Of a stretch of 64,000 nt of DNA, positions 7,386 through 26,190 are shown one piece after another. This DNA comes from Saccharopolyspora phatthalungensis (lineage in GTDB: Bacteria > Actinomycetota > Actinomycetes > Mycobacteriales > Pseudonocardiaceae). A program made the translations under genes and the position numbers. The stretch is taken from NCBI RefSeq assembly GCF_014203395.1, contig NZ_JACHIW010000003.1, positions 62,001 through 126,000 of the forward strand, read 5' to 3'. Position 1 is the stretch's first letter, and each line of letters starts with the position of its first letter. The notes beneath the pieces are model-generated. The model made no database searches. It saw only the letters and a list, made by a program, of their open reading frames with translations, and was not told the DNA's origin.

Positions 7386-7805
7386 ATGGCACGGCCAGGC
7401 TTCCATCTCGCCATACCGGTCGATGACCTGGGAAAGGCGCGCGAGTTCTACGGCGGCGTTCTCGGATTTCCTGAAGGTCGTTCCGGCGAGAAATGGGTGG
7501 ATTGGAACCTCTACGGCCACCAGCTCGTCACGCACGTCGCTAGTGATGGCCGCCAGGTGGTGGCGCGCAACCTAGTTGACGGTCATGCTGTGCCGGTGCC
7601 GCACTTCGGGCTCATTCTGCCTATTCCGGCCTTCCGCGAACTGGCGGAACGACTCGAGGCCGCATGCACCACGTTCGTGATCGAGCCGTATCTGCGGTTT
7701 GAGGGTGAGCCGGGGGAGCAGTGGACGATGTTCTTCCTCGACCCGTCCGGCAACGCATTGGAATTCAAGGCGTTCCGGGATGAATCGCAGGTGTTCGCAG
7801 TATGA
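7386..7805 (+). CDS. VOC (glyoxalase/extradiol dioxygenase-like) family protein
   Basis: A 139-aa metalloprotein of the vicinal-oxygen-chelate fold. The two beta-alpha-beta-beta-beta modules begin at [20 protein letters not shown] and [20 protein letters not shown]. Likely metal ligands are H7, H73 and E126 (GNALEFKAF). The sequence resembles the predicted-dioxygenase subgroup of VOC proteins rather than glyoxalase I proper. The start at 7386 follows GAAGGGAAAA, and the stop overlaps the next gene by ATGA, so the two are co-translated. The substrate is unknown. Confidence 0.8.
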
Positions 7806-8688: not shown

Positions 8689-10032
8689 ATGATGTCTGTA
8701 TCGGATGGCCGCCCTGTCACGGGCGTCGTGGATCAGCTTCCGACGCTAGACACTCTTCATGCGCGCGCCAGACGGCTCGCCGACGATTCCGGAGGCAGGG
8801 TCGGTTGGAGTTCCATGGGATCGTCGCGACTCGGCGAGGATCTGGGCGTTCTTACCGTTGGTGAGGGAGGACGGCACGCGGTTGTTCTCGCTGGGGTGCA
8901 CCCCAACGAGCCGATCGGCGGTCTCACGGCCCTAGCCCTAGCGGAACAGCTTTCGAACGATCAGGGCCTTGCGCGGGACCTTGGCTATACCTGGCATATT
9001 GCCGTATGTGTGGACCCTGACGCGATGAGGCTGAACGAGGAGTGGCTCGGGCGGCCGCTTTCTCGAACGCGCTACGAGCGTTACTTCTACCGGCCCGCCT
9101 CTGCAGAGCAGGTTGAATGGACCTTCCCGCTTACCACTGACGGATACGTTTTCGACAAGCCGTTGCCCGAGACTATGGCGATGATGAGGTTGATCGACGG
9201 TGTCAAGCCGGATGTCCTGGCATCGTTGCACGACTGTGAAATGGGTGGAGCGTACTTCTACCTGTCTCGCCCTGAGCCATCATTGTACCCGGTTTTGACA
9301 AAAATTTGCGCTGGTGCCGGGGTGCCGATGGACCTGGGTAAGCCGGAGGGTGAAAACGATGAGTCGTTCGCACCAGGCATTTTCAAGTTCGGTCACCCTA
9401 GCGAGGCCGCGGCGCGTGGAATGGACCTAGCGGCTGAATGGGGTACCGGCTCGTCAAGCATCCACTACGCGCAGAAGTACGGCGCCCTGGGGATCATCCC
9501 CGAGGTTCCCATGTGGAGAAACACCGAGTTCGGTGACCGCACCGTCGCGAGTGTCAACTCCCATCAGGCACGACTCGATGCAGGCAACTCGTTGGTTCAG
9601 CGGGGAGAACTGCTCGAGTCGGTAATCGATCAACTTGACGCTTTCGAGCTCCTCGACACACCTGTGTCGCGTGCTGCTCGGAGTCTTGTGCCGACAGTCG
9701 CCACGCATGGACGCGAGCTGCTGGCGGCGCGCGAGAATGCCGACGACGGGCCGATAACCGTGGGCGAGCTTGCGTCATTGCAGGCATTCGTTCTCAAACA
9801 CTCGAAGCGATTCGGCAGCCTTCTCGTCCGAGCCATGGACATCGAGATCCTCGCTGGCCTCGCCCCTCGCGGCGTTCGCGATCTTGCCAACGGCTTGCGA
9901 GTCCAGGTCCAAAGGTGGGGAGACGACGTAGACGAAGGCGCTGCATGGCAGTCGGTTCCGATCGACTCTCTTGTTGAGGTACAAGTTAAAGCTGTAATCG
10001 CAGCTGCTCGTACGGCATCCCACTGCCGGTAG
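8689..10032 (+). CDS. M14-like zinc hydrolase (carboxypeptidase / succinylglutamate desuccinylase-type fold)
   Basis: A 447-aa protein. The zinc motif H71-P-N-E74 (VLAGVHPNEPIGG) and a third ligand H181 in LASLHDCEMGG fit the HxxE...H pattern of family M14 and the AstE/AspA branch. The start at 8689 follows GGGAG. No signal peptide is seen, so it is cytoplasmic. Its neighbours are an M1 and an M24B peptidase and a peptide importer, so a carboxypeptidase or acyl-amino-acid hydrolase role on imported peptides is reasonable. Codon position 3 is less G/C-rich here than in the ben/cat genes. Exact specificity is unknown. Confidence 0.72.
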   Translation: MMSVSDGRPVTGVVDQLPTLDTLHARARRLADDSGGRVGWSSMGSSRLGEDLGVLTVGEGGRHAVVLAGVHPNEPIGGLTALALAEQLSNDQGLARDLGYTWHIAVCVDPDAMRLNEEWLGRPLSRTRYERYFYRPASAEQVEWTFPLTTDGYVFDKPLPETMAMMRLIDGVKPDVLASLHDCEMGGAYFYLSRPEPSLYPVLTKICAGAGVPMDLGKPEGENDESFAPGIFKFGHPSEAAARGMDLAAEWGTGSSSIHYAQKYGALGIIPEVPMWRNTEFGDRTVASVNSHQARLDAGNSLVQRGELLESVIDQLDAFELLDTPVSRAARSLVPTVATHGRELLAARENADDGPITVGELASLQAFVLKHSKRFGSLLVRAMDIEILAGLAPRGVRDLANGLRVQVQRWGDDVDEGAAWQSVPIDSLVEVQVKAVIAAARTASHCR

Positions 10033-10329: not shown

Positions 10330-12921
10330 GTGACAACCCCGAATCTGACCCGCGAACAAGCCAACCTGCGCAAGTCTCTAATCCGAGTTCAGTCCTACGA
10401 CGTACATCTCGACTTCACCGACGGTCTCGGGAACCTGTCTACTGACACTTTCAGGTCCGCCACCACCATAGTGTTCGCCGCCGACTCCCCGTCGGCCACT
10501 ACGTGGCTCGACCTCGTCGCTTACGACATAACTACGGCCACTCTCAATGGTGAGGCTCTGGACGTGTCACGGTATCGGCCCGAGACCGGCATCGTGTTGC
10601 CCAAACTACAACGGTCGAACACTGTCACGGTAGAAGCGCGTATTCGATACTCTAACACAGGTGAAGGCATACACCTGTTCGTCGACCCGCTTGACAACGA
10701 GACGTACCTCTACTCGCACTTTCAGGCCACCGATGCGAAGCGGGCTTTCGCTTGCTTCGACCAACCCGACATCAAGGCGCCGTACACGTTTCACATAACG
10801 GCCCCCGAACACTGGGAGGTCGCATCGAACAGTCCCATTTCGCGCATTGAAGCAAGACATACCGGCGGCAAAACTGTCCATTTTGATCCGACGCTACCTA
10901 TCAGCTCCTATCTCACCGCGGTCGTCGCCGGTCCTTATCATGTGTGCCGCACGGTGCACGACGGAATTGACCTGGCGCTGTACTGTCGGCGGACTCTGGC
11001 CAAAGACCTCGATGCTGACCGGATCCTGGACGTGACCAAGAAGGGGCTTGACTGGTACAACAAGGAGTTCGGCCACCGGTACCCATTCGGAAAGTATGAC
11101 CAAATCTTTGCTCCCGAGCTGAATGTCAATGCTATGGAGAACGTCGGCGCGGTGACTTTGAGCGAGGATTTTGTGTTCCACGGTCAGGTTACGGATGCGC
11201 AATACCAGAACCGCGCGAACGTCATCCTGCACGAAATGGCACACATGTGGTTCGGTAACCTCGTTACAATGCGTTGGTGGAGCGACCTGTGGCTCAACGA
11301 GTCGTTCGCCACGTACGCCGCGTCCCTGTGTCAGGCGTCGGCAACTCGCTGGAGCGATGCTTGGGTCACATTCGCGAGCAAGAAGGCAGTCGCTTATGAA
11401 CAAGATCTTCAGCCGACGGCACACCCCGTAGCAACGGATTCGCCCGACGAACAGGCTGCGGCTGTTAACTATGACGGCATCACTTATGCCAAGGGTGCCA
11501 GCGTGCTCAAACAACTCGTCGCCCAGGTGGGTCTCGAAGCGTTCATGACTGGGCTGCGTCATTACTTCGCTACGTTCGCGTATGGCAACACCGATTTGGC
11601 CGCATTGCTTTCGATATTGGAGGAGGCGTCGGGTCGCGACTTGTCCGGGTGGGCGACTGTGTGGCTGGAAACGGCTGGCGTCAACACCATGCGCGTCGAA
11701 TACCAAGTCGACGAGGCTGGCCGCTACACGGCGTTCGAGCTCATCCAAGAAGCGCCGACGGACGTCGTTCGATCAAACACGCTTCGGCCGCACAGGCTGG
11801 AAATAGCTTTGTACAACAGTGACGGCGAGCGTCTGGTTCGTACCGACCGGGTCGACGTAGACGTTACGGGTGCAAGGATCGCGGTACCCAAATTGATCGG
11901 CGCACTGCAGCCGGACGCTCTACTGGTTAACGACGATGACCTGACCTATGGCAAACCCAGGCTCGATCGGCAGACGCTTGCTACGTTGCGAGACGGTGGT
12001 ATCGCTCGTATCGATGACCCGATGGCGCGGGCGCTATTTTGGTCCTCGGCGTGGGAGATGACGCGTGACGGTATTGTTGCTGCGCGTGATTTCGTTACTT
12101 TGGTGCTGGCTGGTGCCAGCGGCGAAAACGACATAGGCGTCCTTCAGTTGCTAATGCATCAAGCCCAGACTGCACTCGACATCTACGCAACCCGAGACTG
12201 GGCGCCTACGGGTTATGGCGCCATGGCACGATATGCATACGCCGCGTTGCGCGGCGCCAAGGCGGGCTCTGACCAGCAGATCGTGTGGGCACGGGTGCTG
12301 ACATCATGCGCCGGCGACGACAGGCACCTGGACTTCATTCAAGGTTTGTGGCGCGGGACTGAGCAGGTCGCCGGGCTCGTGATCGACGACAGTTTGCGTT
12401 GGTCGATCGTCCAGACTCTCGCCGGCCACGGCCTCGTGAATGACGCCGACATTCGCGCCGAGCTCGATCGCGATCCCTCGGCCTCCGCTCATCGAAACGC
12501 CGCCACGGCGTATGCGCTGCTCCCAACGCCACAGGCCAAGGCCGAGGCGTGGTACCGATCAGTCGAAGACGGAGCACTGCAGAAAGCAATGCGCCAGGCA
12601 TTTGCCCGCGGCTTTGCCCACCGCAACCAGGGCGAGATCTTGGCCCCGTACATCGACCGGTATTTCGACGAAGTGCCTGAGCTGTGGCGTCGCAGCGAAG
12701 GAGAAACCGGTCAGAAGCTGGTAAAAGCATTGTTCCCTCGGTGGGCATCGGCCATCGACGCAAATACACTCGCGACTGCGGACCGCCTTCTTGCACGAGA
12801 AGGTCTGCCGACAGCACTGGTCCGGTTGATAGGCGAGGGCCGCGCCGACGTGTCGCGCGCACTGCGAGCTCGGGCCACCGACGCGGGGTGCGGTACGGGT
12901 GCGCAGGAGCAAATGTCCTAA
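10330..12921 (+). CDS. pepN: M1-family aminopeptidase N
   Basis: Zinc aminopeptidase of 863 aa, the normal length for actinobacterial PepN. The substrate-binding exopeptidase motif is N267-A-M-E-N271 (the GAMEN position), and the zinc motif is H301-E-M-A-H305 with E324 (HExxHx18E). A C-terminal ERAP1-like helical domain fills the rest. The GTG at 10330 lies shortly after GAGGAAAGAAG. There is no signal peptide, so it is intracellular. Together with the nearby Xaa-Pro aminopeptidase and peptide ABC system it would strip N-terminal residues from imported peptides. Confidence 0.93.
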   Translation: MTTPNLTREQANLRKSLIRVQSYDVHLDFTDGLGNLSTDTFRSATTIVFAADSPSATTWLDLVAYDITTATLNGEALDVSRYRPETGIVLPKLQRSNTVTVEARIRYSNTGEGIHLFVDPLDNETYLYSHFQATDAKRAFACFDQPDIKAPYTFHITAPEHWEVASNSPISRIEARHTGGKTVHFDPTLPISSYLTAVVAGPYHVCRTVHDGIDLALYCRRTLAKDLDADRILDVTKKGLDWYNKEFGHRYPFGKYDQIFAPELNVNAMENVGAVTLSEDFVFHGQVTDAQYQNRANVILHEMAHMWFGNLVTMRWWSDLWLNESFATYAASLCQASATRWSDAWVTFASKKAVAYEQDLQPTAHPVATDSPDEQAAAVNYDGITYAKGASVLKQLVAQVGLEAFMTGLRHYFATFAYGNTDLAALLSILEEASGRDLSGWATVWLETAGVNTMRVEYQVDEAGRYTAFELIQEAPTDVVRSNTLRPHRLEIALYNSDGERLVRTDRVDVDVTGARIAVPKLIGALQPDALLVNDDDLTYGKPRLDRQTLATLRDGGIARIDDPMARALFWSSAWEMTRDGIVAARDFVTLVLAGASGENDIGVLQLLMHQAQTALDIYATRDWAPTGYGAMARYAYAALRGAKAGSDQQIVWARVLTSCAGDDRHLDFIQGLWRGTEQVAGLVIDDSLRWSIVQTLAGHGLVNDADIRAELDRDPSASAHRNAATAYALLPTPQAKAEAWYRSVEDGALQKAMRQAFARGFAHRNQGEILAPYIDRYFDEVPELWRRSEGETGQKLVKALFPRWASAIDANTLATADRLLAREGLPTALVRLIGEGRADVSRALRARATDAGCGTGAQEQMS

Positions 12922-13420
12922 TGTGCTGGAGTCAGCATCCCGGCCGACTTGTGTCGTTTAGGTCTCGGGGCTTCGCCGAGTTACGCGCTAATAGCTGCTA
13001 GAGATTGCTGATCGTGGCGTGAGGAGGCGGCGGCAGCCGCTGTGGGTCGCGTTCGACAAGTTGTTGAGCATCGGCCCCCTGCTGCCGGTTGTCCCGCACG
13101 GTCCTTCGCACGCTGGCACGACCTGGTCGCTGTCTGAACCCCCGCTGGAAGTCCGAACCACTGGCGCCTTACCCCCGGGAGGGGACGCCAGCGGCTCGGC
13201 TGGCCCATCTCAGATTTAGCCAGATTGACCGGCTCAAGTTTGAGGGAAAGTAAGGTAAAGGTGTGATACCTTACGTGTTTGTTGATGCGCCGCCGAGCGT
13301 CCATGCTCTTCAGGGATGCGGCCGGCCTCAGGGAAGCGTGGCGCGCGACCGCCGTTCGTTAGCGAGCGCTACCAATCTGGCGCGGTATTTGCAGCAGCTT
13401 CGATGAAGAAGGGGACGGTC
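12922..13420. other. Intergenic region with operator, no convincing gene
   Basis: About 500 bp between pepN and the aminopeptidase P gene. No open frame here resembles a protein family. A GntR-type operator lies at 13259-13271, and a TTGACC at 13225 could be part of a promoter. The GTG start of the next gene is preceded by GAAGGGGAC. Confidence 0.55.
13259..13271. promoter_or_regulatory. Predicted GntR operator upstream of aminopeptidase P
   Basis: AGGTGTGATACCT is the exact reverse complement of the site at 19238-19250 (AGGTATCACACCT), upstream of the peptide ABC operon. The AGGT/ACCT arms flank a GTGAT core, and TAC follows as at 7339. An exact 13-bp match between two promoter regions in one window is unlikely by chance. 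Confidence 0.75.
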
Positions 13421-14950
13421 GTGACGGACAACCTCCAGGTCAACCAAGGGAGCGGTGGGTTTCAAGATGTCGCCTCTGCTCAGCGCGCGCACCCGCGTTC
13501 CACCCCCGCCCTCGCAGACTTCATGGCGCAGGGCTGGGCGGATCGCTCTGCCGCGCTTATTGGCGACGGCGCCGCGGCGATCCTCGCCCGAGGACGTCGC
13601 GAACGCCTCGCAGCTGCCTTCCCTGGCGACCGATTGATTGTTCCCGCTGGTTCGCTCAAGGTCCGATCGAATGACGTCACGTACTTGTTCCGCCCCCATT
13701 CGGCGTTCGCGCACCTCACAGGGTTGGGCTGCAAGGCGGACCCGGACTCCGTCCTGATCATCGACGTAGACGAGTTCGGCGTGCACACCGCTGTGGTCTA
13801 CATCCTGCCGTCGACAGGACCGGGCACCGAAGCCTTCTATATGGACGGAGTTCGAGGGGAGTACACGATCGGTCGGCGACCAACACTCGAGGAGCTGGCA
13901 GACTTCCTGGGAGTCGAAGTTCGCCCCTTCGACCAGTACCACGAGCACGTCGCCAAGCCAGTGCAGGGCTGTGTCCGACTCATTCGGGGCGCGTCAGACT
14001 CCGTCGACAAGTTCCTCGACTCCCAAGGTCTACTGGCGACCGACGAAATCCACGTCGAATTCGAGAACGCCACCGACGAGTTGCGGCTCGTCAAGGATCC
14101 TTGGGAGATCGACCAGCTCGGACGCGCAGTCGACATCACCATCACGGGATTCGCGGATGTCGTCGAGGCGCTCCCGTTCGCCGCTCAGAAGCAGCGCGGC
14201 GAACGGGTCATCGAGTCTGTCTTCTTCGGACGAGCTCGCTGCGACGCCAATGACATCGGCTACGGATCGACCGCCGCCGCAGGCAACAACGCCACAAACC
14301 TGCACTGGGATGTTTGCGACGGCCCGGTACGGCCGGGAGATCTCCTCCTCCTCGACGCCGGTGTCGAGTTGGACAGCCTCTACACGGCCGACATCACCCG
14401 CACCATTCCCGTATCCGGCCGCTTCACCGCTGTCCAACGAATGATCTACGACGCGGTACTCGAGGCGGCTGACGCGGCGTTCGCGGCCGCAGAGGTGGGA
14501 CGTCCGTTCCAGGACACCCACGATGCGGCCGTCACTGTCCTCGCTCGGCACCTCCGGGCCTGGGGCCTCCTGCCCGTGAGCGTCGAAGAGTCGCTCTCCG
14601 ACACCGGCCAGCACCATCGGCGATGGATGCCGCACGCCACCAGCCACCACCTCGGCCTGGACGTGCACGACTGCGCCAAGGCGCGTCGGGAATTCTACCG
14701 AGGCGCGGTGATCCGGCCCGGAATGGTCTTCACTATCGAGCCGGGTCTCTATTTCAAGCGGGACGATCTGACTGTCCCGCCGGAATTCCGGGGCATCGGG
14801 GTGCGAATCGAGGACGACATCGTTGCAACCGACGACGGGCCCATAAATCTGAGCTCCGGCCTCCCGCGCACGGCCGACGACATTGAGAGCTGGATGGCAC
14901 CGCTTCTCGAATCGGGTCACCAAGCCCTCGCGCTGCGAGACAAGGCATGA
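13421..14950 (+). CDS. Xaa-Pro aminopeptidase (aminopeptidase P, M24B)
   Basis: Removes N-terminal residues preceding proline. The M24B metal site is complete: Asp in LLLDAGVELDS, Asp in YTADITRTIPVSG, His in TSHHLGLDVHD, Glu in TIEPGLYF and Glu in VRIEDDIV. I choose the GTG at 13421 (509 aa) because GAAGGGGAC lies about 8 bp upstream; an ATG at 13403 and open frame back to 13316 lack a ribosome site. It has the operator at 13259 in its promoter and overlaps the next gene by ATGA. Suited to Pro- or hydroxyproline-rich peptides. Confidence 0.92.
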   Translation: MTDNLQVNQGSGGFQDVASAQRAHPRSTPALADFMAQGWADRSAALIGDGAAAILARGRRERLAAAFPGDRLIVPAGSLKVRSNDVTYLFRPHSAFAHLTGLGCKADPDSVLIIDVDEFGVHTAVVYILPSTGPGTEAFYMDGVRGEYTIGRRPTLEELADFLGVEVRPFDQYHEHVAKPVQGCVRLIRGASDSVDKFLDSQGLLATDEIHVEFENATDELRLVKDPWEIDQLGRAVDITITGFADVVEALPFAAQKQRGERVIESVFFGRARCDANDIGYGSTAAAGNNATNLHWDVCDGPVRPGDLLLLDAGVELDSLYTADITRTIPVSGRFTAVQRMIYDAVLEAADAAFAAAEVGRPFQDTHDAAVTVLARHLRAWGLLPVSVEESLSDTGQHHRRWMPHATSHHLGLDVHDCAKARREFYRGAVIRPGMVFTIEPGLYFKRDDLTVPPEFRGIGVRIEDDIVATDDGPINLSSGLPRTADDIESWMAPLLESGHQALALRDKA

Positions 14951-15918
14951 GCGCCACCTGGTCGCGACGAGGACTTTGGCTTTTGTTGGCGGTTGTCGCG
15001 TGTGCGGCCTTTGCCGGCTCGGGCCCGTTCGCGAAGTCCCTCATGGAGGTGGGGGTAGCCGCAGATCAAGCTGCCTGGCTCCGCCTGACCGGTGCGGCCC
15101 TTGTCCTGGTCCCTACCGCGGTGCTGCTCAGAGGCCGCGGTCTCATTGCGTCCCTCAAAGCATCGTGGCCGTACCTGCTTGGCTACGGACTGGTGGGAAT
15201 GGCGGCGTCTCAGACCCTGTACTTCACTGCGGCGCAGCGGCTTCCGGTCGGGGTTGCGATCCTGCTCCAGTTCTCCGGCCCGCTGCTGATCATTGGCTGG
15301 ATCCGCTTCGTCCGCCGTCGGAAAGTTCCGCGAACGGCAGTCGTCGGGGTGCTCATCTCGCTCGTCGGCTTGGCCATCGTTGTCGAAGTCTGGGCAGGCA
15401 TCGGGTTCGACCTCGTGGGTGTACTGGCCGGCGTTGGATCGGCCGGGTGCCAGGCTGCATACTTCCTCATGATCGAAGGGCTGGCCGGCATGACAGACGT
15501 GCTCGTCATGACGGCTACCGGAACCGCGGTGGCGTCAGTGTCCCTTACCTTCGTCGCGCTCCCTTGGACAATCCCCTGGCACGTAATCGTCTCGGGCCAG
15601 GTCAGGCTCGATGGGGGCAGCGTCCCCGGCTGGTTCCCAACCATCTGGCTTATTCTGATTTCCGCGATTGTCGCCTATCTCGGAGAAGGAGCCGCAGTGC
15701 AGCGGCTCTCGGCCGTTGTCGGCGGCGCAGTTGCGTACGTTGAGGTCGTCTTCACAGCCCTGATCGCGTGGGCACTTTTAGGAGAACATCTCGGCGTCGC
15801 GCAGATCCTCGGCGGCGCGATGGTCCTGACGGGTGCATTCATTGCACAGCGCCCGCCTGATCCCGCAGATCCGTCTTCTGTGGCGCACCCGGAGCTGGAG
15901 GTCCTGCACAAGAAATGA
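14947..15918 (+). CDS. EamA/DMT-family transporter
   Basis: Integral membrane protein of 323 aa with about ten predicted transmembrane helices in two EamA repeats, for example LWLLLAVVACAAFAGSGPFA near the start and the second repeat from about residue 150. DMT proteins of this kind often export amino acids or other metabolites. It overlaps the aminopeptidase P stop by ATGA, so it is co-expressed. It may relieve build-up of an amino acid released by peptide breakdown; this is inference. Confidence 0.85.
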   Translation: MSATWSRRGLWLLLAVVACAAFAGSGPFAKSLMEVGVAADQAAWLRLTGAALVLVPTAVLLRGRGLIASLKASWPYLLGYGLVGMAASQTLYFTAAQRLPVGVAILLQFSGPLLIIGWIRFVRRRKVPRTAVVGVLISLVGLAIVVEVWAGIGFDLVGVLAGVGSAGCQAAYFLMIEGLAGMTDVLVMTATGTAVASVSLTFVALPWTIPWHVIVSGQVRLDGGSVPGWFPTIWLILISAIVAYLGEGAAVQRLSAVVGGAVAYVEVVFTALIAWALLGEHLGVAQILGGAMVLTGAFIAQRPPDPADPSSVAHPELEVLHKK

Positions 15919-17513: not shown

Positions 17514-18482
17514 TCAGGCGCGGGCCTCTGACTGCCGGAAATCCCGCTCGCCGCTCGCTGCGAGTTGCGAAGCGACGGCGTCGCAGATAGCCCAGTCCTG
17601 GATCCCGAGCCCGACGGACTTGAAGACCGTCCGGCCCCTGCGCACCTTCTCGTTAGCGTTGAGGCGCGGGCTGAGTTCGGTGACCGATCCCAGCGACAGG
17701 ACGCCGTCGGCGATCGCGTCCATGAGGTCGCCAGCCTCGCTTCGTGCCGCTTCCAAGTCGTCGACCACCACATCCGCTCCGGCGAAGGCGCCGGAAGGCA
17801 GTTCGCGCATATTCAACGTGTATGCGCCGATCGCATTGATGTGGACGACCTCAGGGAGGTCGGCGGGGTCGAATACCGGCCGGGTGGATGAGGTGGCGCA
17901 GCACACGATGTCCGCGGAACCGAGGTGCGGAGCGGGATCTAGGCCAGTGACGACAGTGAGTTCTGGGAACGCTGAGCGCACCCGATCACCGAGAGCGTCG
18001 GCCGACGTCAGCGACCGGGACACGATGACCACGTGCTCGAGATCCCGTACGGCAGCAACAGCCCTTATCTGGTCGAATGCCAGGGTGCCGGCGCCGATGA
18101 GGACCAGACGGTGTGCGTCCGGACGGGCCAGCATCTCCGTAGCCACCCCGACCACTGCCCCGGTGCGTAGCGTTGTTACGGCGTGGGCGTCAAGGACGAG
18201 TTCGAGATCTTCGGAGATCCAGGTGACTACACCGCGAATGGCTGGGCGCTGCCCCGGCCGCAGGATCACCGATTTAGTGGTCGACGAGCCGGTTGGCGAA
18301 TGGAACACCGGCATAACCAGGGTGCGGCCGCAGTCGAATGATGTGCGCAGCGGCGAGGAGAACTCGCCACGCGCCAACGATATGAATGCGTCGCGCACCG
18401 CGGCAACGGCGACAGGCATTGGCACGATGTTCTCGAGAGCTGCCGGCGGAACGATCTCAAGCGTCGTCAACGTGGGAGTCAC
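17514..18482 (-). CDS. Ornithine cyclodeaminase / mu-crystallin family protein (candidate pyrroline-2-carboxylate reductase)
   Basis: NAD(P)-binding enzyme of 322 aa. The Rossmann part contains LVLIGAGTLAFDQIRAVAAV in the middle, preceded by TTLRTGAVVGVATEMLARPD, the usual OCD/mu-crystallin order. I use the GTG at 18482, which overlaps the end of gntR by about 26 bases; the frame is open to 18515. Family members act as ornithine cyclodeaminase, alanine dehydrogenase or delta-1-pyrroline-2-carboxylate reductase. With both aconitase X subunits in the facing operon, the reductase role (pyrroline-2-carboxylate to proline) is my first choice. Confidence 0.8.
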   Translation of the reverse strand: MTPTLTTLEIVPPAALENIVPMPVAVAAVRDAFISLARGEFSSPLRTSFDCGRTLVMPVFHSPTGSSTTKSVILRPGQRPAIRGVVTWISEDLELVLDAHAVTTLRTGAVVGVATEMLARPDAHRLVLIGAGTLAFDQIRAVAAVRDLEHVVIVSRSLTSADALGDRVRSAFPELTVVTGLDPAPHLGSADIVCCATSSTRPVFDPADLPEVVHINAIGAYTLNMRELPSGAFAGADVVVDDLEAARSEAGDLMDAIADGVLSLGSVTELSPRLNANEKVRRGRTVFKSVGLGIQDWAICDAVASQLAASGERDFRQSEARA

Positions 18483-19158
18483 TTTCGTTGAGGCCAGCCC
18501 AGAGGCCACGCACATGGGTCAGGTGTGTCCGCATGACCGACGCGGCGGCCGCCGCCTCGCCGGCTTCGATCGCATCGAGAAGGGCATCGTGCTCCCTCAG
18601 GGAACGCTGGAACGATTCGGACCCGGCGATGCGGTCCAAGCCCCAGAGCCGGCTCTGATCCCGGAGGTTTCCGACGATCTCGACCAGGCGCGGGTTCTCG
18701 AGGAAGCGGAGGATGCCCAGATGGAACTGCCTGTCGGTCTCGACAAAGTTCTCCCAGTCCTGCGCCCAGGCGTAGGCCCGGTTCCGCTCACAGAGAGTGC
18801 GCAGGTGATCGAAGTCGGTGATCAACGAACGCTCGGTGATCTCCGTTACCGCACCGACTTCGAGCATCGTGCGGATCTGCACGATGTCATCGAGCTCTTC
18901 CTCGTTTGGGCACCGGACCACGAACCCGCGGTTGCGGCGCATTTCTATCAAACCGTCCTTGGCGAGGTCGTGAAGTGCTTCTCGCACTGGGGTGATCGAG
19001 ACATTCAGGCGCTCGGCGATCGCTCCGATGGAGTAAAGGGAGCCGGGCTCGAGCCGACCCGACACGATTTGCGACCGGATGATCTGGCTGGCCTGCGCCC
19101 TGTAGCTCTGCCGGTCGACTGTCCGTTCGTCGTCGTCTGACCATTGCAGCGTCGCCAT
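18457..19158 (-). CDS. GntR-family regulator (FCD subfamily)
   Basis: A 233-aa regulator. The N-terminal winged HTH spans about residues 15-80 (IRSQIVSGRLEPGSLYSIG through ITPVREALHDLAKDGLIE), followed by a helical FCD effector domain with likely metal-binding residues in ETDRQFHLGIL and HLTHVRGLW. It is divergent from the peptide ABC operon and overlaps the reductase gene downstream. A predicted operator lies 12 bp before its start, which suggests autoregulation. The same operator appears before two other operons in the window. The ligand is probably a pathway intermediate. Confidence 0.9.
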   Translation of the reverse strand: MATLQWSDDDERTVDRQSYRAQASQIIRSQIVSGRLEPGSLYSIGAIAERLNVSITPVREALHDLAKDGLIEMRRNRGFVVRCPNEEELDDIVQIRTMLEVGAVTEITERSLITDFDHLRTLCERNRAYAWAQDWENFVETDRQFHLGILRFLENPRLVEIVGNLRDQSRLWGLDRIAGSESFQRSLREHDALLDAIEAGEAAAAASVMRTHLTHVRGLWAGLNESDSHVDDA

Positions 19159-19170
19159 GGATCTCCTTCG

Positions 19171-19183
19171 AGGTATGACACCC
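19171..19183. promoter_or_regulatory. Predicted operator in the gntR promoter
   Basis: AGGTATGACACCC is a near copy of AGGTATCACACCT at 19238, with two differences. It lies 12 bp upstream of the gntR start codon, in a position to block its own transcription. Confidence 0.6.
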
Positions 19184-19237
19184 GAACCTTGTGCTCCGAC
19201 TGTCTGTCTCTTCGAATATTACCCTACCATGGTTGTG

Positions 19238-19250
19238 AGGTATCACACCT
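19238..19250. promoter_or_regulatory. Predicted GntR operator upstream of the peptide ABC operon
   Basis: AGGTATCACACCT is identical in reverse complement to the 13259 site, with a GTG before the AGGT arm matching the CAC on the other strand. It lies 17 bp upstream of the binding-protein start and 55 bp from the gntR-proximal site. Confidence 0.72.
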
Positions 19251-19267
19251 GACGCTAGGCTCCGGGA

Positions 19268-20827
19268 ATGACTTCACATCGGGTTATGGGCCGCTTAGGT
19301 GCGGCGACGGCCGCTGTCATCCTGCTCCTCGGCGGCGCCGCGTGCGGCGCCCCAAGTAACGGCCCGGGCTCAGCCAAGGCCGATCAGACCCTGAAGTGGG
19401 CGCTGCCAGCTCCTCCTAACAGCCTCGACATCACCAAGGCGATCAACGCCACGTCGTACACCGTGCAAAGCGCCGGCCTGGAAACCCTGGTCCACCCGGA
19501 GGCCGGGCAGATCAAGCCCTGGCTCGCCAAGTCGTGGACCTCGCCCGACCCCCTCACCTACGTCTTCGAGCTGCGCGATGACGTGACATTCTGGAACGGC
19601 GCTCCGATGACCGCGGATGATGTGGCATTCTCGATCGAGCGCAATATCAGTCCGAGCTCGCTCATCAGCTACGACTTCACAGCGGTCAGCTCAGCGACGG
19701 CAACCGGCGCCCACGAGGTCACCGTCAAGCTCAAGCACCCGGACCCTCTGTTCCTGCAGGTGGCCATCGGCACGGATGCCCTTGTCGTGCAGAAGTCCTA
19801 CGTGCAAGCAGCCGGAGACCAGATCGGCACGCCCGACAAGCTCAACATGGGCACGGGGCCGCTCGAGTTCAAGAGTTTCTCGAAGACCTCGGGTGTCACG
19901 CTCGATCGATATGACAAGTACTGGGGCGACAAGCCGACGTTTGCCGGCGTCCAGTTCACGACGATCTCCGATCCCGAGACCATGCGCATCGCGCTCACTC
20001 AGGGCCAAGTGGACGGTTCGTTCGACGGAACCGCTGCCCACTCCGACCAGTACAAGAGCAACAAGACGAATGTATCGCTGGCACCGGGCAAGGGATACCT
20101 CTACATGTCGATGGACGTTCGTCAGGCACCGTTCAACGACGTGCATGTCCGCAAGGCCATCGCCCTCGCCCTTGACAAGCAGGCCATCACGAAGGCAACG
20201 GCCGGCAACGCGGCCCAGCCAGCCGATGCGCTGATGACGAGGCCGCAGTTCGAGACCATGTTCGGCCAGGACGGCGTGGACTTCACGTCACAGGTTCCGA
20301 GCACCACGACCAATCTCGATGCAGCGAAGGCCGAGCTGGCCCAGTCGAAGACACCCAAGGGCATCTCGACCTCGGTCCGGTTCAACGCCGACGGCAGGTT
20401 GGCCTTCCAGGTCATCCAGCAGCAGCTGGCGCCGCTTGGCATCGTGCTGAATGGTCAGCAGGTGGACGACAACCAGTTCTACTCCGAGATCGGAAAGATC
20501 AGCGACCCCCAGGGGCTGCGGATCATCCTCTCCGGCGCGGCATCGACCGATCCCTGGGAGTCTCTGCGTTCGCTGCTCGGCGACGCCGACACCGCCGGCT
20601 ACAGCAGCGACGTGACGAAGACCAACCTCGACATCCTTGCCAGCACGGCCGACCCGGCACAGCGGAAATCTGCTGTTGTGGCAATCAGCAAGGACATCGC
20701 AGACCAGGCTCCGTTCATCCCGCTGTACACGACCAAGCAGATGCTGGTTCTGGGCAAGGAATGGGCCTACGACAATTTCACGCCGCGAGGATCTGGCTGG
20801 ATCCTGAAGCTGCACCCGGCGAGCTGA
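19268..20827 (+). CDS. ABC transporter substrate-binding lipoprotein (peptide/nickel type, SBP family 5)
   Basis: Extracellular binding protein of 519 aa. The N-terminal signal has a charged start, a hydrophobic stretch and a lipobox ending L-L-G-G-A-A-C26, so it is predicted to be a lipoprotein. Family 5 features include LKWALPAPPNSLDITKA, YVFELRDDVTFWNGAPMTAD, and a late VRKAIALALDKQAI. It heads an operon with two permeases, a fused double ATPase and aconitase X. Likely ligand: small peptides, perhaps Pro/Hyp-rich. Confidence 0.9.
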   Translation: MTSHRVMGRLGAATAAVILLLGGAACGAPSNGPGSAKADQTLKWALPAPPNSLDITKAINATSYTVQSAGLETLVHPEAGQIKPWLAKSWTSPDPLTYVFELRDDVTFWNGAPMTADDVAFSIERNISPSSLISYDFTAVSSATATGAHEVTVKLKHPDPLFLQVAIGTDALVVQKSYVQAAGDQIGTPDKLNMGTGPLEFKSFSKTSGVTLDRYDKYWGDKPTFAGVQFTTISDPETMRIALTQGQVDGSFDGTAAHSDQYKSNKTNVSLAPGKGYLYMSMDVRQAPFNDVHVRKAIALALDKQAITKATAGNAAQPADALMTRPQFETMFGQDGVDFTSQVPSTTTNLDAAKAELAQSKTPKGISTSVRFNADGRLAFQVIQQQLAPLGIVLNGQQVDDNQFYSEIGKISDPQGLRIILSGAASTDPWESLRSLLGDADTAGYSSDVTKTNLDILASTADPAQRKSAVVAISKDIADQAPFIPLYTTKQMLVLGKEWAYDNFTPRGSGWILKLHPAS

Positions 20828-20857
20828 TGGCTCATGATCCAGAGGAGGAGCAGCCCA

Positions 20858-21805
20858 GTGCTGGCCTACCTAACCCGTAAGCTCTGTGAGGCGGTGCTGC
20901 TGCTGACAGTGGTATCCGTACTCGTCTTTGGGCTGCTCCGCCTCGCGCCGGGGTCGATCGAGAGCACACTTCTCGCAGGTAAGCCCGCAACGCCCGAGAC
21001 TATCGCGGCGATCCACGCCCAGTACCATCTGGATGATCCCATCTGGGCGCAGTACTGGCAGTGGGTGACCCACGCAGTTCGCCTCGACTTCGGCAATTCC
21101 CTGGTGGACGGCACGCCGATCTCGACGATTGTTACGGATCGCATCCCGGTCTCTGCGGGTCTGGCGATCCTTGCCCTTTCGATCACGCTCGTAGTCGGCG
21201 TGCCGCTGGGACTGCTTGCCGGCCGACGCCAGGGCACCGCCGCCGACTCCTCGTTGAGTGCGGGCGCGATAGTCCTGCTCTCGGCCCCCGTGTACGCCCT
21301 GGCGACCCTGCTGCTGTACGTCTTTGGCATCCAGCTCGGATGGTTTCCGGTCTTTGGGGCGGGCGATGGCTTCGTTGACCAGCTATGGCATCTCGTCCTG
21401 CCCGCAATGACCTTGTCGGCGGTGCAGATCGCGGTCGTCTTCCGCCAGGCGCGCGCGGCCGCGATCGATGTCGAACGGGCGGACTATCTGACCTTCGCGC
21501 GTGCCCGCGGCCTCGGCAGGATGCGGATCGAGCTCGGCTACCGGCTTCGCAACGCCTTGCTGCCGGTCATCACCGTCAGTGCGCTCCTGCTCGCCTCCAG
21601 TCTTGCCGGGGTCGTCTTCGTCGAGCAGATCTTCTCCCTGCCCGGCTTGGGTTCCCTTCTTGTGACGTCTATCGAGACGAAGGATCTGACTGTGGTTCAA
21701 GCTCTCGCGCTGTTCAGCGCGTTGCTGGTCTTCGGATTCAACCTGATCGTCGACGTCCTCTACGCGGTCATCGACCCGCGCATCGTTGTGGGGGAGCGGT
21801 CATGA
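20858..21805 (+). CDS. Peptide-type ABC transporter permease (DppB-like)
   Basis: Inner-membrane permease of 315 aa with about six transmembrane helices and the EAA-loop region (YLTFARARGLGRMRIELGYR). The ATG at 20834 is in frame, but the GTG at 20858 has GAGGAGGAG about 9 bp upstream and gives the family start MLAYLTRKLCEAVLLL, so I use it. It overlaps the next permease by ATGA. DppB-type proteins begin with a helix followed by a long periplasmic loop (here LAPGSIESTLLAGKPATPET), as seen. Confidence 0.9.
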   Translation: MLAYLTRKLCEAVLLLTVVSVLVFGLLRLAPGSIESTLLAGKPATPETIAAIHAQYHLDDPIWAQYWQWVTHAVRLDFGNSLVDGTPISTIVTDRIPVSAGLAILALSITLVVGVPLGLLAGRRQGTAADSSLSAGAIVLLSAPVYALATLLLYVFGIQLGWFPVFGAGDGFVDQLWHLVLPAMTLSAVQIAVVFRQARAAAIDVERADYLTFARARGLGRMRIELGYRLRNALLPVITVSALLLASSLAGVVFVEQIFSLPGLGSLLVTSIETKDLTVVQALALFSALLVFGFNLIVDVLYAVIDPRIVVGERS

Positions 21806-22635
21806 GAACCCTGATCATTAGCGCGGTCCGGAGCCCGGTGTTCACCGCCTGCCTCCTCGTCCTTTTCTTCGCGGTGCTGATTACGGCGTTCGGGGCGCTG
21901 CTCGCCCCGCAGGACCCCATGTACCAGGACATCGGACTCGGTGTGTCGGGGCCGTCAGTGGCCCATTGGCTCGGGACCGATGAGCTCGGACGCGATGTCT
22001 TCGCGCGCCTCATCGCCGGAGCCCGCACGGGGATTCTCGGAGCCGTCGTCACCGCCACGGGGGCAACCCTGATCGGCACGACGATCGGACTGGCGAGCGG
22101 CTACACCAACAGGCGGCTCGATACGTTCCTCATGCGCGCAGCGGATATCGTCTGGGCATTCCCGGCGCTCCTGACGATCCTGGTTGTGGTCGGCGTCTTC
22201 GGCGGCGGATACTGGCTCGCAGTCGCCATGCTCATCCTTTTCGCATGGCCTATGGAAGCTAGGCTCGTCCGAGGCGCGACCATGGTGCGGAAAAGCCTGC
22301 CCTACGTAGAAGCCGCGCATACTCTCGACCTGAGTCACAGCAGGATCGTCGTGCGGCACATCCTCCCGAACCTGTGGCCCTTGGTGCTGACCAATTTCCT
22401 TCTGGGCTTCGTTTCGTCGATCGCGGTTCTCTCCGGCCTGTCGTTCCTTGGCCTAGGTGTGGCCCCGGGCACCCCGGACTGGGGCCTCATGATCAACGAG
22501 AACCGCCAGGTTCTGGACTCCAACGTCTGGGGCGTGCTGGCACCTGCTCTCTGCCTGATTGCGGTTTCCCTCGCGGCGACGATCGCCGCAGACCGCCTCT
22601 ACACTACGATCTCGATCAAGTCTGGAGCCCGATGA
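21802..22635 (+). CDS. Peptide-type ABC transporter permease (DppC-like)
   Basis: Second permease of the pair, 277 aa. It has a first helix, then the DppC-type motif HWLGTDELGRDVFARLIAGA and the EAA loop near LPYVEAAHTLDLSHSRIV, ending with LSGLSFLGLGVAPGTPDWG, which is strongly conserved in the family. The start ATG overlaps the preceding stop. A longer open frame upstream (from 21385) is out-of-frame translation of the first permease. Confidence 0.9.
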   Translation: MRTLIISAVRSPVFTACLLVLFFAVLITAFGALLAPQDPMYQDIGLGVSGPSVAHWLGTDELGRDVFARLIAGARTGILGAVVTATGATLIGTTIGLASGYTNRRLDTFLMRAADIVWAFPALLTILVVVGVFGGGYWLAVAMLILFAWPMEARLVRGATMVRKSLPYVEAAHTLDLSHSRIVVRHILPNLWPLVLTNFLLGFVSSIAVLSGLSFLGLGVAPGTPDWGLMINENRQVLDSNVWGVLAPALCLIAVSLAATIAADRLYTTISIKSGAR

Positions 22636-24455
22636 GCGTCCCAGAAACAACTCGCTCCGTCACCGCCCCCGCGGTGCGCCTCACGGGCCTGAGCGTGAGT
22701 GCCCGGCGCGGGAATGACCTCAAACCCCTCACCTTCGACACCAGCTTCGAGGTGGCCCGTGGCGAGACGCTCTGCGTGGTTGGAGAGTCCGGGAGCGGGA
22801 AGTCGATCACGGTTCGCGCCCTTGCGGGGCTGCTCCCTCCCGGCCTCGAAGCCGCTGGTTCCGCTTTGGTCGACGGTCACGAGATGGTCAATGTCCCGGA
22901 GCGCAGCCTCCGGCATTTGCGGGGCACTACGGTCTCTCTACTCATGCAGGACCCATTCACGATCCTGAATCCCCTCCAAACCGTTCGCGCGCACATCCGG
23001 GAGTCCCTGCCCGCGGGCGCCCATGAAGACGAACTTGTCGCCCGGCTGGCCGAGGTGCAGATCAAGAATCCCAAGGTACTTGATCGATACCCGTTCCAGC
23101 TCTCCGGCGGCATGCGTCAAAGGGTCGCTCTGGCGACTGCCCTTGCGAAGGACCCGTTGCTCCTGATCGCCGACGAACCCACCACCGCACTAGACGCCAC
23201 TACGCAGAAGGAGATCCTAGACCTCATCGGCCGTCTCCAGGCCGATCGAGGCATGTCGGTCATTCTCGTGACCCACGACCTTCGGTTGGGCTTCGCCTAC
23301 AGCGACAACGTGGTCGTGATGTATGCCGGGAACATCGTCGAATGCGGATCCGCCAAGGGCATCGACGCCCGGTCTGCCCACCCGTACACGGAAGGACTGC
23401 TCCGTTCCATTCCGCGGGTTGACCTCCGCGCCCAGCTGGTAGGCATCCCTGGGACGATCATCCCAGCTGAAGAGACCATAGGTCGATGCGCCTTCAGCAA
23501 CCGATGCCAGTGGAACAGTCATGTATGCGTCGAGGCTCAGCCGCCGCTGACCCAAGTGGGTCCCGAGCACTACTCGGCATGTGTCCGGATTGGCGAAATC
23601 GACAGCGAGGTGCACGCACGCCAGGTCGCGGTCACTTCTTCGAGCCTGCAGGCTCAGGGCCGACGAGCGGAGGTCCTTCGCGTCACGGACCTGACAAAGG
23701 TCTTCCGCGATCGTCGCACCCACCAGGACCACCACGCGCTTAAGGGCGTCAGCCTCTCAATCCGTAAGGGCCAAAGCTTGGGCGTCATCGGTGAGTCCGG
23801 TTCCGGCAAGACAACACTCGCGCGCTGTGTCCTCGGCCTCGAGAATGCGACCACAGGCTCGATCCACATCAACAACACTGACGCCTCGGCGTACTCGCGA
23901 CTCACGGCGGCGGACCGCCGAGCGGTTCGCCGTTCGGTCCAATGCGTGTTCCAGGATCCCTACACCTCCCTCAACCCGGCTCGGACTGTCGGATCGACGC
24001 TTCAGGAAGCGCTGGACCTGCTGCCTGCTCAGCGCCGTGGCCATTCCCCGGCGGACCTCCTCGAGCTGGTCCGGCTTCCCCGAACGTATGCCGTTCGAAA
24101 GCCTTCCACCCTTTCCGGCGGGGAACGGCAGCGAGCCGCAATCGCCCGCGGACTCGCACTGAACCCCGAACTCCTCATCTGCGACGAGCCCGTTTCGGCC
24201 CTCGACGTCTCGGTTCAGGCGCAGATCCTCGGGGTTCTGAACCGAGCGCACGCCGAGCTGGGCACGGCGATGCTCTTCATCACCCACGACCTCGGCGTTG
24301 TCCGTCAGGCGACCGATGACGTCGTCGTCATGTACCAAGGCGAGATCGTCGAGGAAGGACCCACCGAGGCCGTCCTCGATGACCCGCGGCACGAGTACAC
24401 AAGGCGTCTGCTGCGCGCTCTCGAATTCGAGGCGCGCACACGGGTGGTGAGGTGA
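22632..24455 (+). CDS. Fused double ATP-binding protein of peptide ABC transporter (DppD-DppF-like)
   Basis: A 607-aa protein with two complete ABC ATPase domains. Domain 1 has Walker A GESGSGKS at residues 51-58, signature LSGGMRQRVALATALA and Walker B LLLIADEPTTALD. Domain 2 has Walker A GESGSGKT at about 387-394, signature LSGGERQRAAIARGLA and Walker B LLICDEPVSALDVSVQ. Each is followed by the oligopeptide C-terminal extension; the first contains a cluster of Cys (GRCAFSNRCQW...VC) seen in OppD-type proteins. The start overlaps the permease stop. The fusion replaces the usual separate D and F subunits. Confidence 0.92.
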   Translation: MSVPETTRSVTAPAVRLTGLSVSARRGNDLKPLTFDTSFEVARGETLCVVGESGSGKSITVRALAGLLPPGLEAAGSALVDGHEMVNVPERSLRHLRGTTVSLLMQDPFTILNPLQTVRAHIRESLPAGAHEDELVARLAEVQIKNPKVLDRYPFQLSGGMRQRVALATALAKDPLLLIADEPTTALDATTQKEILDLIGRLQADRGMSVILVTHDLRLGFAYSDNVVVMYAGNIVECGSAKGIDARSAHPYTEGLLRSIPRVDLRAQLVGIPGTIIPAEETIGRCAFSNRCQWNSHVCVEAQPPLTQVGPEHYSACVRIGEIDSEVHARQVAVTSSSLQAQGRRAEVLRVTDLTKVFRDRRTHQDHHALKGVSLSIRKGQSLGVIGESGSGKTTLARCVLGLENATTGSIHINNTDASAYSRLTAADRRAVRRSVQCVFQDPYTSLNPARTVGSTLQEALDLLPAQRRGHSPADLLELVRLPRTYAVRKPSTLSGGERQRAAIARGLALNPELLICDEPVSALDVSVQAQILGVLNRAHAELGTAMLFITHDLGVVRQATDDVVVMYQGEIVEEGPTEAVLDDPRHEYTRRLLRALEFEARTRVVR

Positions 24456-25771
24456 TGCCGCCTTCGATGCCGGCAGACGGGTTCCGAGGGATTGACCTCA
24501 CTCCAGATCAGACAGCGATGCTAGGCGGCCGAGACGGGGATGGGGTCGCCATGGCTATGCGCGTGATCGTGGCCACCGGCCGGTCCCTCGGCGGCAGCCG
24601 CCTTATCTCCATCAACTCATGCCACGTCGACTCATGCCTCTACCACGGGCAGGTGAGTCTCGATTTTGCACGCGGGCTCGAAGCGCGAGGCGCTCGGGTC
24701 CGCGTCCCCACCACCTTGAACGTCGGATCTGTCGACCTCCTGCACCCTGCGATGGTGCTGAGGCGAAACCCGGAAGAAGTCAAAGTCTACGAAGACGGCC
24801 GAGCGTTGATGGCTGCGTACACCGCTCTGGGCTGCACTCCTTCCTGGACCTGTGCGCCGTACCAGCTTCCGGGCCGCCCTTCGTTCGGCGAGCACATCGC
24901 GTGGGCCGAATCCAATGCAGTCGTCTTCGCCAACTCCGTGCTGGGGGCCCGGACAGAGCGATACGGCGATTTCATCGACATCTGCTCAGCGGTCACTGGG
25001 TTCGCGCCCTACGCCGGGCTTCACACCGACGAGGGCCGTCTGGCCACCGTCCTCTTCGACTGCACCGGCCTCACCGGCGCAACCCTCGATCACGAACTCA
25101 CCTACCCCCTGATCGGATACCTCGTCGGGAGCTGGACGGATCAAGGCAACAATCCCGTGATCACGGGCCTTCCTCCTGACACGCCGGAAGACCGCCTCAA
25201 GGCACTGGGAGCAGCCGCCGCCTCAGCCGGCGGCGTGGCTCTCTTCCATGCCGTCGGCGTCACGCCCGAAGCGCCGACACTCGAAGCGGTCCTCCACCCA
25301 TCCGGGCCGATCGCGGTGCACAGGCTTGAGCTCCGCGACCTTGAAGCCGCTCGCGCTGAACTGACCACCCGCTCGACAGGCAAGTTGGACGCGGTGAGCG
25401 TGGGCACACCACACGCGTCGATAGCCGAGATCCGCGCCCTCGCTCAGCTGCTCAAGCCCGCGCCCCGCTTCCATGACGAGGTCGAAGTATTCCTCTCCAC
25501 CGGCCGGAGAACACTGACCGACGCCAAAGCAGAAGGTCTAGTCGAGATCCTCGAACGGTCGGGCGTCCGCATCCTTGTCGACACCTGTACCTACGTCACG
25601 TCAGTCCTTTCGGCCAAAGTCCACACGGTGATGACGAATTCGGCGAAGTGGGCCCACTACGCCCCTGCGAACCTTGGCGTCGACGTAGCCGTCGGAACGC
25701 TCGAGGAGTGCGTCGAGTCGGCTGTCCGGGGTCAGGTGACGCTCCATCCGATGAGTGAGGTGTCGGATTGA
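24452..25771 (+). CDS. Aconitase X catalytic large subunit (candidate cis-3-hydroxy-L-proline dehydratase)
   Basis: A 439-aa protein of the DUF521/AcnX family. It has INSCHVDSCLYHG with candidate cluster Cys, GCTPSWTCAPYQLPGRP, WAESNAVVFANSVLGARTER and a late LVDTCTYVTSV. AcnX proteins of bacteria and archaea have been shown to dehydrate cis-3-hydroxy-L-proline, or to be mevalonate-5-phosphate dehydratase in archaea. The former fits here because an OCD-family reductase and peptide genes share the regulon. The GTG start overlaps the ABC ATPase stop (GTGA), so uptake and catabolism are translationally coupled. Confidence 0.88.
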   Translation: MMPPSMPADGFRGIDLTPDQTAMLGGRDGDGVAMAMRVIVATGRSLGGSRLISINSCHVDSCLYHGQVSLDFARGLEARGARVRVPTTLNVGSVDLLHPAMVLRRNPEEVKVYEDGRALMAAYTALGCTPSWTCAPYQLPGRPSFGEHIAWAESNAVVFANSVLGARTERYGDFIDICSAVTGFAPYAGLHTDEGRLATVLFDCTGLTGATLDHELTYPLIGYLVGSWTDQGNNPVITGLPPDTPEDRLKALGAAAASAGGVALFHAVGVTPEAPTLEAVLHPSGPIAVHRLELRDLEAARAELTTRSTGKLDAVSVGTPHASIAEIRALAQLLKPAPRFHDEVEVFLSTGRRTLTDAKAEGLVEILERSGVRILVDTCTYVTSVLSAKVHTVMTNSAKWAHYAPANLGVDVAVGTLEECVESAVRGQVTLHPMSEVSD

Positions 25772-26190
25772 TCTGGCAGGCAACCGGAGTGCCCCTCAAC
25801 CAGGGCCGCGCATCTGGCACCGCACTTGTATTGTCCGAACCACTGTCATTCTGGGGAGGCGTAAACGACCGAGGCACGATCGTCGATGTCCACCACGCCC
25901 AGCTCGGGGCCAGCGTCACGCGCAGGGTGCTGTTCCTCCCAAGCGGCCGAGGCTCGAGTTCGAGCTCCAGCTGCCTGGCAGAACTCATTCGCACCGGCCA
26001 AGGACCAGCTGGGATTGTGCTGGGACGCCGGGATTCGATTATCGCCCTGGGCGCCATCGTGGCCGCAGAGCTTTACAGCCTCGAAGTGCCCGTGGTCGTC
26101 ATTCCGTGGTCAGCCGTGAACGACTTGGCAGCCGGGAGTGACGTTGAGGTCTGTGCCTCATCCCAGGAAGCCATAATCCGCTCCCGGTGA
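25768..26190 (+). CDS. Aconitase X small (swivel) subunit
   Basis: A 140-aa protein of the DUF126 swivel-domain family, the separate small half of AcnX. It has GRASGTALVLSEPLSFWGGV at the N-terminus and FLPSGRGSSSSS followed by LAELIRTGQGPAGIVL. The Ser-rich GRGS segment corresponds to the conserved active-site loop of the swivel domain. TTG start at 25768 overlapping the large-subunit stop (TTGA). Both subunits are needed for activity in the two-gene type. Confidence 0.87.
   Translation: MIWQATGVPLNQGRASGTALVLSEPLSFWGGVNDRGTIVDVHHAQLGASVTRRVLFLPSGRGSSSSSSCLAELIRTGQGPAGIVLGRRDSIIALGAIVAAELYSLEVPVVVIPWSAVNDLAAGSDVEVCASSQEAIIRSR

Follow-up and report, generated by a model that had tools for sequence, protein, structure and literature searches.

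Aconitase X (AcnX) enzymes of Type IIa are heterodimeric cis-3-hydroxyproline dehydratases, marked by Asp203 and two cluster cysteines, and have been characterised from brasilense, I. calvum and M. viridifaciens (PMC8184944). Here we describe a locus in a 64,000-nucleotide stretch of the Saccharopolyspora phatthalungensis genome (contig NZ_JACHIW010000003.1, positions 62,001 to 126,000; hereafter the window) in which the genes for both AcnX subunits belong to the operon of an Opp/Dpp-type ABC importer. We consider it fairly probable, at somewhat better than even confidence, that the locus forms part of a GntR/FCD-controlled regulon for the use of peptides containing cis-3-hydroxyproline. The window AcnX resembles the characterised Type IIa enzymes in its two subunits, catalytic Ser, Asp203 and two cluster cysteines. 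The known enzymes occur with a hydroxyproline (Hyp) epimerase and oxidase, whereas the window AcnX is encoded in the operon of the importer, and the predicted regulon includes peptidases.

Related regulons and gene clusters have been described in other bacteria. The predicted HypR regulons of gammaproteobacteria have a GntR regulator, proline peptidases, a di/tripeptide permease and, in some species, an OCD protein, but they serve 4-Hyp through other enzymes, whereas the window combines a predicted AcnX-OCD route with an ABC importer and an M14 gene in an actinobacterium (PMC5343134). HypR of Streptomyces coelicolor is also a GntR/FCD regulator and links protein breakdown (an M9 collagenase) to Hyp use; it differs in its operator, CTNTGC(A/C)ATGTCAC, and its 4-Hyp enzymes, and the available passages of the report name no AcnX (PMC6608401). 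Both this HypR and that of S. meliloti repress without inducer (PMC6608401, PMC5343134). The trans-3-Hyp neighbourhoods of Bacilli hold an OCD-superfamily pyrroline-2-carboxylate (Pyr2C) reductase near transporter and peptidase families, but there the trans isomer is dehydrated by a member of the proline racemase superfamily (PMC4113996). The collagen-use cluster of Colwellia likewise unites uptake, peptidases and Hyp/Pro catabolism, but with a secreted M9 collagenase and the 4-Hyp route (PMC7883544). The original prediction, which proposed import of peptides and conversion of their cis-3-Hyp to proline, called this a new arrangement. That wording is too strong, because HypR regulons with proline peptidases and a di/tripeptide permease had already been predicted (PMC5343134), and similar neighbourhoods occur in Bacilli (PMC4113996). 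We found no paper in the open-licence literature that places AcnX with a peptide importer. What appears to be new here is a palindromic, candidate operator site that has two copies in the gntR-importer intergenic region, is kept in a Microbacterium with the same cluster, and is found again before pepP and, in a weaker form, before the M14 operon. Also new are the overlap of the M14 and OCD genes in that Microbacterium and a further version of the locus (L207), in which an Opp importer, an S9 peptidase and PepP face AcnX.

AcnX is coupled to a peptide-type importer operon

Open reading frame and Pfam profile searches recovered in the window all the genes of the original prediction, which had quoted the interval 17514-26190; the three peptidase genes (M14, PepN and Xaa-Pro aminopeptidase) lie outside this interval. 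On the plus strand, the operon encodes an SBP_bac_5 solute-binding protein (19268..20827; 3.1e-66; with a lipobox, by eye), Opp/Dpp-type permeases B (20834..21805) and C (21802..22635), a fused double ATPase (22632..24455; two ABC_tran domains and oligo_HPY), the AcnX large subunit (24452..25771; PF04412, 1.2e-126; Type IIa pattern) and the small, or swivel, subunit (25768..26190; PF01989, 2.7e-21; with the catalytic Ser). The starts of permease C and the ATPase were placed at ATG. The binding protein, the two permeases and the ATPases with oligo_HPY identify an ABC importer of the Opp/Dpp type. Overlaps of 4 base pairs (bp) were found at the permease/permease, permease/ATPase, ATPase/AcnX large subunit and AcnX large/small subunit junctions, which bears out the earlier claim that the AcnX pair is coupled to a peptide-type transporter. 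The OCD/mu-crystallin-family gene (17514..18515; PF02423, 6.4e-31) was also confirmed to lie in a divergent operon, on the minus strand beside the GntR/FCD gene (18457..19158) that encodes the predicted regulator of the regulon.

The proposed regulon would work as follows. Judging by its likeness to HypR, the regulator would occupy its operators and repress when inducer is absent, and would most likely be released by 3-Hyp or its product. The importer would take up short peptides, as its family suggests, and the cytoplasmic M14-like enzyme, the Xaa-Pro aminopeptidase and perhaps PepN would trim these and free the imino acid. AcnX, in which the Ser of the small subunit and the Fe-S cluster residues of the large subunit are present, would dehydrate cis-3-hydroxy-L-proline to Pyr2C, which the OCD-family enzyme would then reduce to L-proline.

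The AcnX subunits carry the Type IIa pattern

We compared the window AcnX with AtAcnX, in which Asp203 contacts the substrate nitrogen and Ser70 is catalytic (PMC8184944). Trp35, Ser70, Asp203, Asn233, Cys273, Glu292, Ser293, Asn294, Cys508, Lys530 and Tyr534 are kept, and Cys71, Thr72, Ile206, Ser449 and Cys510 are replaced by Ser, Ser, Leu, Thr and Tyr, respectively. The protein has the features of Type IIa: separate subunits, Ser70 together with Asp203, and cluster cysteines at 273 and 508 only, without Cys510. The archaeal mevalonate-phosphate AcnX has Ala at the Asp203 position, and Types IIc-IIf are described as lacking the landmark residues of either enzyme (PMC8184944). The features of Type IIb (mevalonate 5-phosphate dehydratase) were absent from the window AcnX, which has Thr at the position of TkAcnX Cys283 and Asp, not Ala, at 203.

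The exact 16-position pattern was found to be common to 74 of 129 aligned rows, the window included. Asp occupies position 203 in 94 of the 129, another residue in 34 (25 of them Ala), and one row has a gap. In a quick tree of the same 129 rows, the window AcnX fell in a clade of 95 (SH-aLRT 99), made up of all 93 rows labelled IIa (80 named loci, the window and 12 unnamed), the truncated row L120, which is of the same kind, and L002; this tree is not independent of the IIa labels, because the labels rest on the same searches. Its nearest neighbours were a Microbacterium (L032) and three Kribbella (support 98). AcnX rows of the Type IIa kind span Actinomycetota, Chloroflexota and Pseudomonadota. 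The pattern and the clade support, as a prediction, the earlier identification of AcnX as a cis-3-hydroxy-L-proline dehydratase, and we infer that cis-3-hydroxy-L-proline is its substrate.

Two substitutions weigh against this assignment. The substrate contacts of Type IIa are described as completely conserved (PMC8184944), and Thr72 and Ile206 are Ser and Leu in the window and in all 74 pattern-sharing rows, as judged with AtAcnX as the sole reference for these contacts. AcnX and the OCD protein might instead act on another imino or amino acid, such as dihydroxyproline or 3-hydroxypipecolate, derived from a peptide natural product and processed further by the VOC and short-chain dehydrogenase/reductase (SDR) proteins encoded ahead of M14 in one operon. 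Besides Ser72/Leu206 and this gene order, such a substrate would fit the slow activity of PaLhpI on 2,3-cis-3,4-cis-dihydroxyproline (PMC5144071) and the reduction of piperideine-2-carboxylate, as a second substrate, by a close NCBIfam relative of the OCD protein. The same AcnX pattern is nevertheless found in five loci with a proline racemase (L040, L055, L057, L062 and L074), of which L040, from Micromonospora musae, also has an OCD gene. This argues for plain 3-Hyp, and we regard a different substrate as improbable.

The 8.54 Mb genome has one AcnX match, and AcnX scored above the Pfam cut-off in 26 of 200 genomes of the family, this one included, with no match among the ten same-genus genomes listed. 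At a threshold of 0.001, the window AcnX was matched in 18 of 394 genomes of the class (own genome included) and in 9 of 349 genomes of the family of G534. Separately, 22 of the 200 genomes of its own family encode AcnX proteins in which position 203 holds a residue different from Asp (L005-L026), which belong to other, apparently uncharacterised kinds.

The OCD-family protein is a predicted Pyr2C reductase

The OCD protein failed to reach the cut-off of any listed NCBIfam model. Its top score was 169 bits, to PRK08618 ('ornithine cyclodeaminase family protein'). Reductase models gave 151 bits (PRK06141, bifunctional pyrroline/piperideine-2-carboxylate reductase; cut-off 322), 137 bits (PRK07340, Pyr2C reductase family; cut-off 266) and 98 bits (LhpI reductase; cut-off 400). 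Archaeal alanine dehydrogenase gave 105 bits, the PRK08291 cyclodeaminase 104, and PRK06407, PRK06823 and PRK07589, which are named for ornithine cyclodeaminase or its family, 56-87. The closest PDB match by sequence was the Pyr2C reductase 6t3e.

Lys69 and Arg112 have carboxylate roles in the OCD superfamily, and Asp228 is catalytic in ornithine cyclodeaminase (PMC3497308). The window protein has the conserved Arg/Lys residues (Arg57, Lys81 and Arg117), and its residues 230-235 read Gly-Ala-Tyr-Thr-Leu-Asn, with Asp at column 235 in 2 of 21 aligned rows. In a presumed register to the P. putida OCD, Asp228 would correspond to Tyr232, a column that holds Asp in none of the 21 rows.

The proposal of an LhpI-type Pyr2C reductase is supported as a prediction: reductase models and 6t3e are among the nearest relatives, although all scores lie below the cut-offs. 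The name LhpI is ambiguous: NCBIfam uses it for the OCD-type reductase and for the dehydratase alike, and in PMC5144071 'LhpI' is AcnX itself. We predict that the OCD-family protein is a Pyr2C reductase.

Candidate operators may link the importer operon to peptidase genes

The best stretch common to the gntR-SBP intergenic regions of the window and of Microbacterium L032 was GTGAGGTATCACACC in the former and GTGAGGTATTACACC in the latter. The core GAGGTATNACACC has two exact matches in the window, both between gntR and the importer, and a one-mismatch match at 13260, upstream of pepP. Extended to 18 letters, the operator-like sites in the divergent promoter region lie on the plus strand at 19168..19185 (site 1; 2/18 mismatches) and 19235..19252 (site 2; the seed, matched in L032 at 4667). 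Two more lie on the minus strand, at 13257..13274 (2/18 mismatches), 42-59 bp upstream of pepP, and at 7324..7341 (3/18 mismatches), where it precedes the VOC start (7386) by 45-62 bp.

Three of the five distinct genome-wide sites of AGGTRTNAYACC fall in the window (backward control, one per strand), as do three of the ten sites of GGTRTNAYACC (backward control, seven), a consensus whose R was placed after the pepP site had been seen. With at most two mismatches, GTRAGGTATNACACC has 16 sites genome-wide, four of them in the 64 kb window against 0.12 expected; two of the four are the seeds and the fourth, at 7327, lies upstream of the VOC-SDR-M14 operon. An 18-letter consensus, made after the sites were seen, has four sites at three mismatches or fewer in 7001-27000, where 12 dinucleotide shuffles average 0.08.

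Several counts weigh against reading the sites as operators, in addition to the late choice of R. The genome-wide number of GTRAGGTATNACACC sites equals its backward control (16 and 16). At looser thresholds, the window holds four matches to GAGGTATNACACC with two mismatches against 2.5 in shuffled sequence (26 of 100 shuffles reach four) and five to GGTRTNAYACC with one mismatch against 3.3 (27 of 100), while L032 has one operator-like match against 0.7 (45 of 100). The loci with a proline racemase yielded no exact match to the core. An exact 15-mer match also occurs elsewhere in the genome (C2:54476), next to a transposase-like gene and a CHAT/TPR gene; the pattern by itself is therefore no proof. 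The loose-threshold counts are not above chance; the strictness and place of the sites speak for their being operators.

It might be argued that the importer, housekeeping peptidases and AcnX/OCD genes are chance neighbours and that the operator-like sites are fortuitous too. The control and shuffle counts above are compatible with this, and IS3-like fragments in the window indicate rearrangement. The four gene overlaps of the importer-AcnX operon, the same gene order in Microbacterium, the four sites that the stricter threshold finds within a single 20 kb and the second copy of PepN elsewhere in the genome all speak against luck, which we consider very improbable. The regulon that was proposed earlier is supported as a prediction: the GntR/FCD family of the regulator was confirmed by profile, and the shared operators are predicted upstream of the importer/AcnX operon, gntR-OCD and pepP-EamA, and weakly upstream of VOC-SDR-M14.

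The seven GGTRTNAYACC sites outside the window were taken as chance. Four are within genes and three are intergenic, near the CHAT/TPR gene (C2:54476), a gene without a Pfam match (C2:460688) and an SDR gene. The last of these, at C2:1908984 and about 90 bp before its gene, is the least certain of the seven.

Three peptidases lie within the predicted regulon or beside it

The window holds, as had been claimed, an Xaa-Pro aminopeptidase, PepN and an M14-like hydrolase, all encoded on the plus strand. The aminopeptidase gene pepP (13316..14950; AMP_N and M24) keeps the M24 metal ligands, by eye in an alignment to 5wze, and overlaps an EamA-family transporter gene (14947..15918) by 4 bp. The M14 carboxypeptidase-like protein (8689..10032; PF00246, 1.1e-5) has the HxxE...H zinc site and catalytic Glu of a carboxypeptidase fold, with His71, Glu74, His181 and Glu272 kept in 30 of 30 aligned rows, and by eye has no signal peptide. 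Its gene follows, on the same strand, a VOC/glyoxalase-family gene (7386..7805; 139 aa; PF00903, 1.7e-8) and an SDR gene (7802..8554; 250 aa) that overlap by 4 bp. The PepN gene (10330..12921) has no operator-like site of its own; the argument for its membership is the second copy, 50% identical, and PepN is perhaps part of the regulon.

Of 20 fetched loci with relatives of the M14 protein, 11 have Opp-type permeases no more than 4 kb from it. The other 9 had no Opp permease match nearby. In the window, 7.5 kb separate the M14 gene from OCD, and the proposed scheme has no role for the VOC and SDR genes that precede M14; all three points count against the favoured reading. The M14 family also stands beside Opp-type permeases in AcnX-free stretches (L169-L174, L176, L178 and L180-L182), with a MarR-like regulator in L170 and L178. 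M14 with an Opp-type permease is a recurrent import-and-hydrolysis module.

The Opp-importer version of the locus is rare

A hidden Markov model scan covered two sets of AcnX loci, 80 that were named and 10 unnamed that were fetched. Among the 80, we found OCD in 14, a proline racemase in 9, a branched-chain-type permease in 15, SBP_bac_5 in 3 (one doubtful), Opp permease B in 2, M14 in 1 and PepP in 1 (about 10 kb away); absences are weak evidence, because many of these loci are on short contigs. The 10 unnamed loci included 6 with a proline racemase and 2 with SBP_bac_5. By these counts, actinobacterial Hyp loci commonly come with an importer of the amino-acid type, often together with a racemase; Opp versions are rare.

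The Opp version recurs in three other loci. In Microbacterium EST19A (L032) all eight genes are found in unchanged order, joined by an M14 gene that overlaps OCD. An Actinoallomurus locus (L071) has Opp genes, an amidohydrolase, AcnX and OCD, and the near solved relatives of the amidohydrolase include an arginine carboxypeptidase and an Xaa-Pro dipeptidase. In L207 (783-11792), from an actinobacterium with a 1.5 Mb genome and 46% GC in this stretch, genes for SBP5, an S9 peptidase, permeases B and C, the ATPase, PepP and GH95 face those for the AcnX subunits; GH95 was seen in L240. A single 35-row set of the tree holds these versions: the window groups with L032 on one branch, and the AcnX of L071 and of L207 (row L119) are on others. 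L201 is an unclear case, with Opp genes some 6-10 kb away from AcnX. The doubtful SBP5 match, in L051, overlaps the AcnX frame on the opposite strand, and an FMO match in L062, which spanned 52 residues, was set aside.

Other comparisons point the opposite way. The related Kribbella loci (L035, L041 and L043) showed no match to OCD, importer or peptidase models within 10 kb, which is evidence against a tight link, and the window cluster, unlike canonical Hyp loci, contains no gene recognised as a proline racemase or oxidase. Importers with SBP_bac_5 also carry agrocinopines, nickel complexes and further solutes, and among the PDB relatives are binders of agrocinopine, nickel and peptides. The enzymes could act on cis-3-Hyp while the importer takes up free cis-3-Hyp or some small derivative of it, such as an N-acyl or betaine form, the peptidases being a separate nutrition set under the same regulator. 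The mixed ligands of the SBP_bac_5 relatives would agree with this, as would the canonical loci with the same AcnX pattern, which use a branched-chain-type importer (15/80) and a proline racemase (9/80). It is countered by the Opp importer with peptidases or an amidohydrolase alongside AcnX in L032, L071 and L207, and by the M14 relatives beside Opp permeases in AcnX-free stretches; we consider uptake of the free compound unlikely. The three loci suggest instead that peptides are the source, as in the favoured reading of a regulon for cis-3-Hyp-containing peptides.

The introduction of PMC8184944 gives telomycin as the only known occurrence of cis-3-Hyp. A regulon that ties AcnX to a peptide importer and peptidases points to where the substrate may be sought, with the binding protein, the regulator and the candidate operators as handles for finding it, and it suggests that peptides are the vehicle by which cis-3-Hyp reaches bacteria. 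We raise only tentatively the broader idea of dedicated scavenging of peptides that carry cis-3-Hyp or something closely related to it; a peptide natural product would be a plausible origin. Peptides, not the free imino acid, would then be the ecological source, and the system would have arisen more than once in Actinomycetota with differing peptidase sets.

Flanking genes

Fragments resembling annotated IS3-family transposase DNA were found at 17054-17513, between OCD and a DUF2891 gene (16007-17053). The DUF2891 gene was rejected as a member of the regulon since these fragments separate it from OCD and it has no operator-like site. The genes at 26452-31509 were also rejected, on the absence of an operator-like site and a gap of about 260 bp; no promoter- or terminator-like sites were found in 25900-26700. 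They encode a tryptophan 2,3-dioxygenase-like protein, a VioC-like FAD monooxygenase, a DhnA-type aldolase with a long N-terminal extension and an HTH-fused methyltransferase. At a threshold of 0.001, searches with the aldolase gave nothing in the genomes of L032, L062 and L071; that of L040 contains a 32% match. This compact set looks like a small natural-product cluster. Further downstream, at 38090-39145, a D-glutamate cyclase-like protein adjoins an MFS transporter and a LysR regulator.

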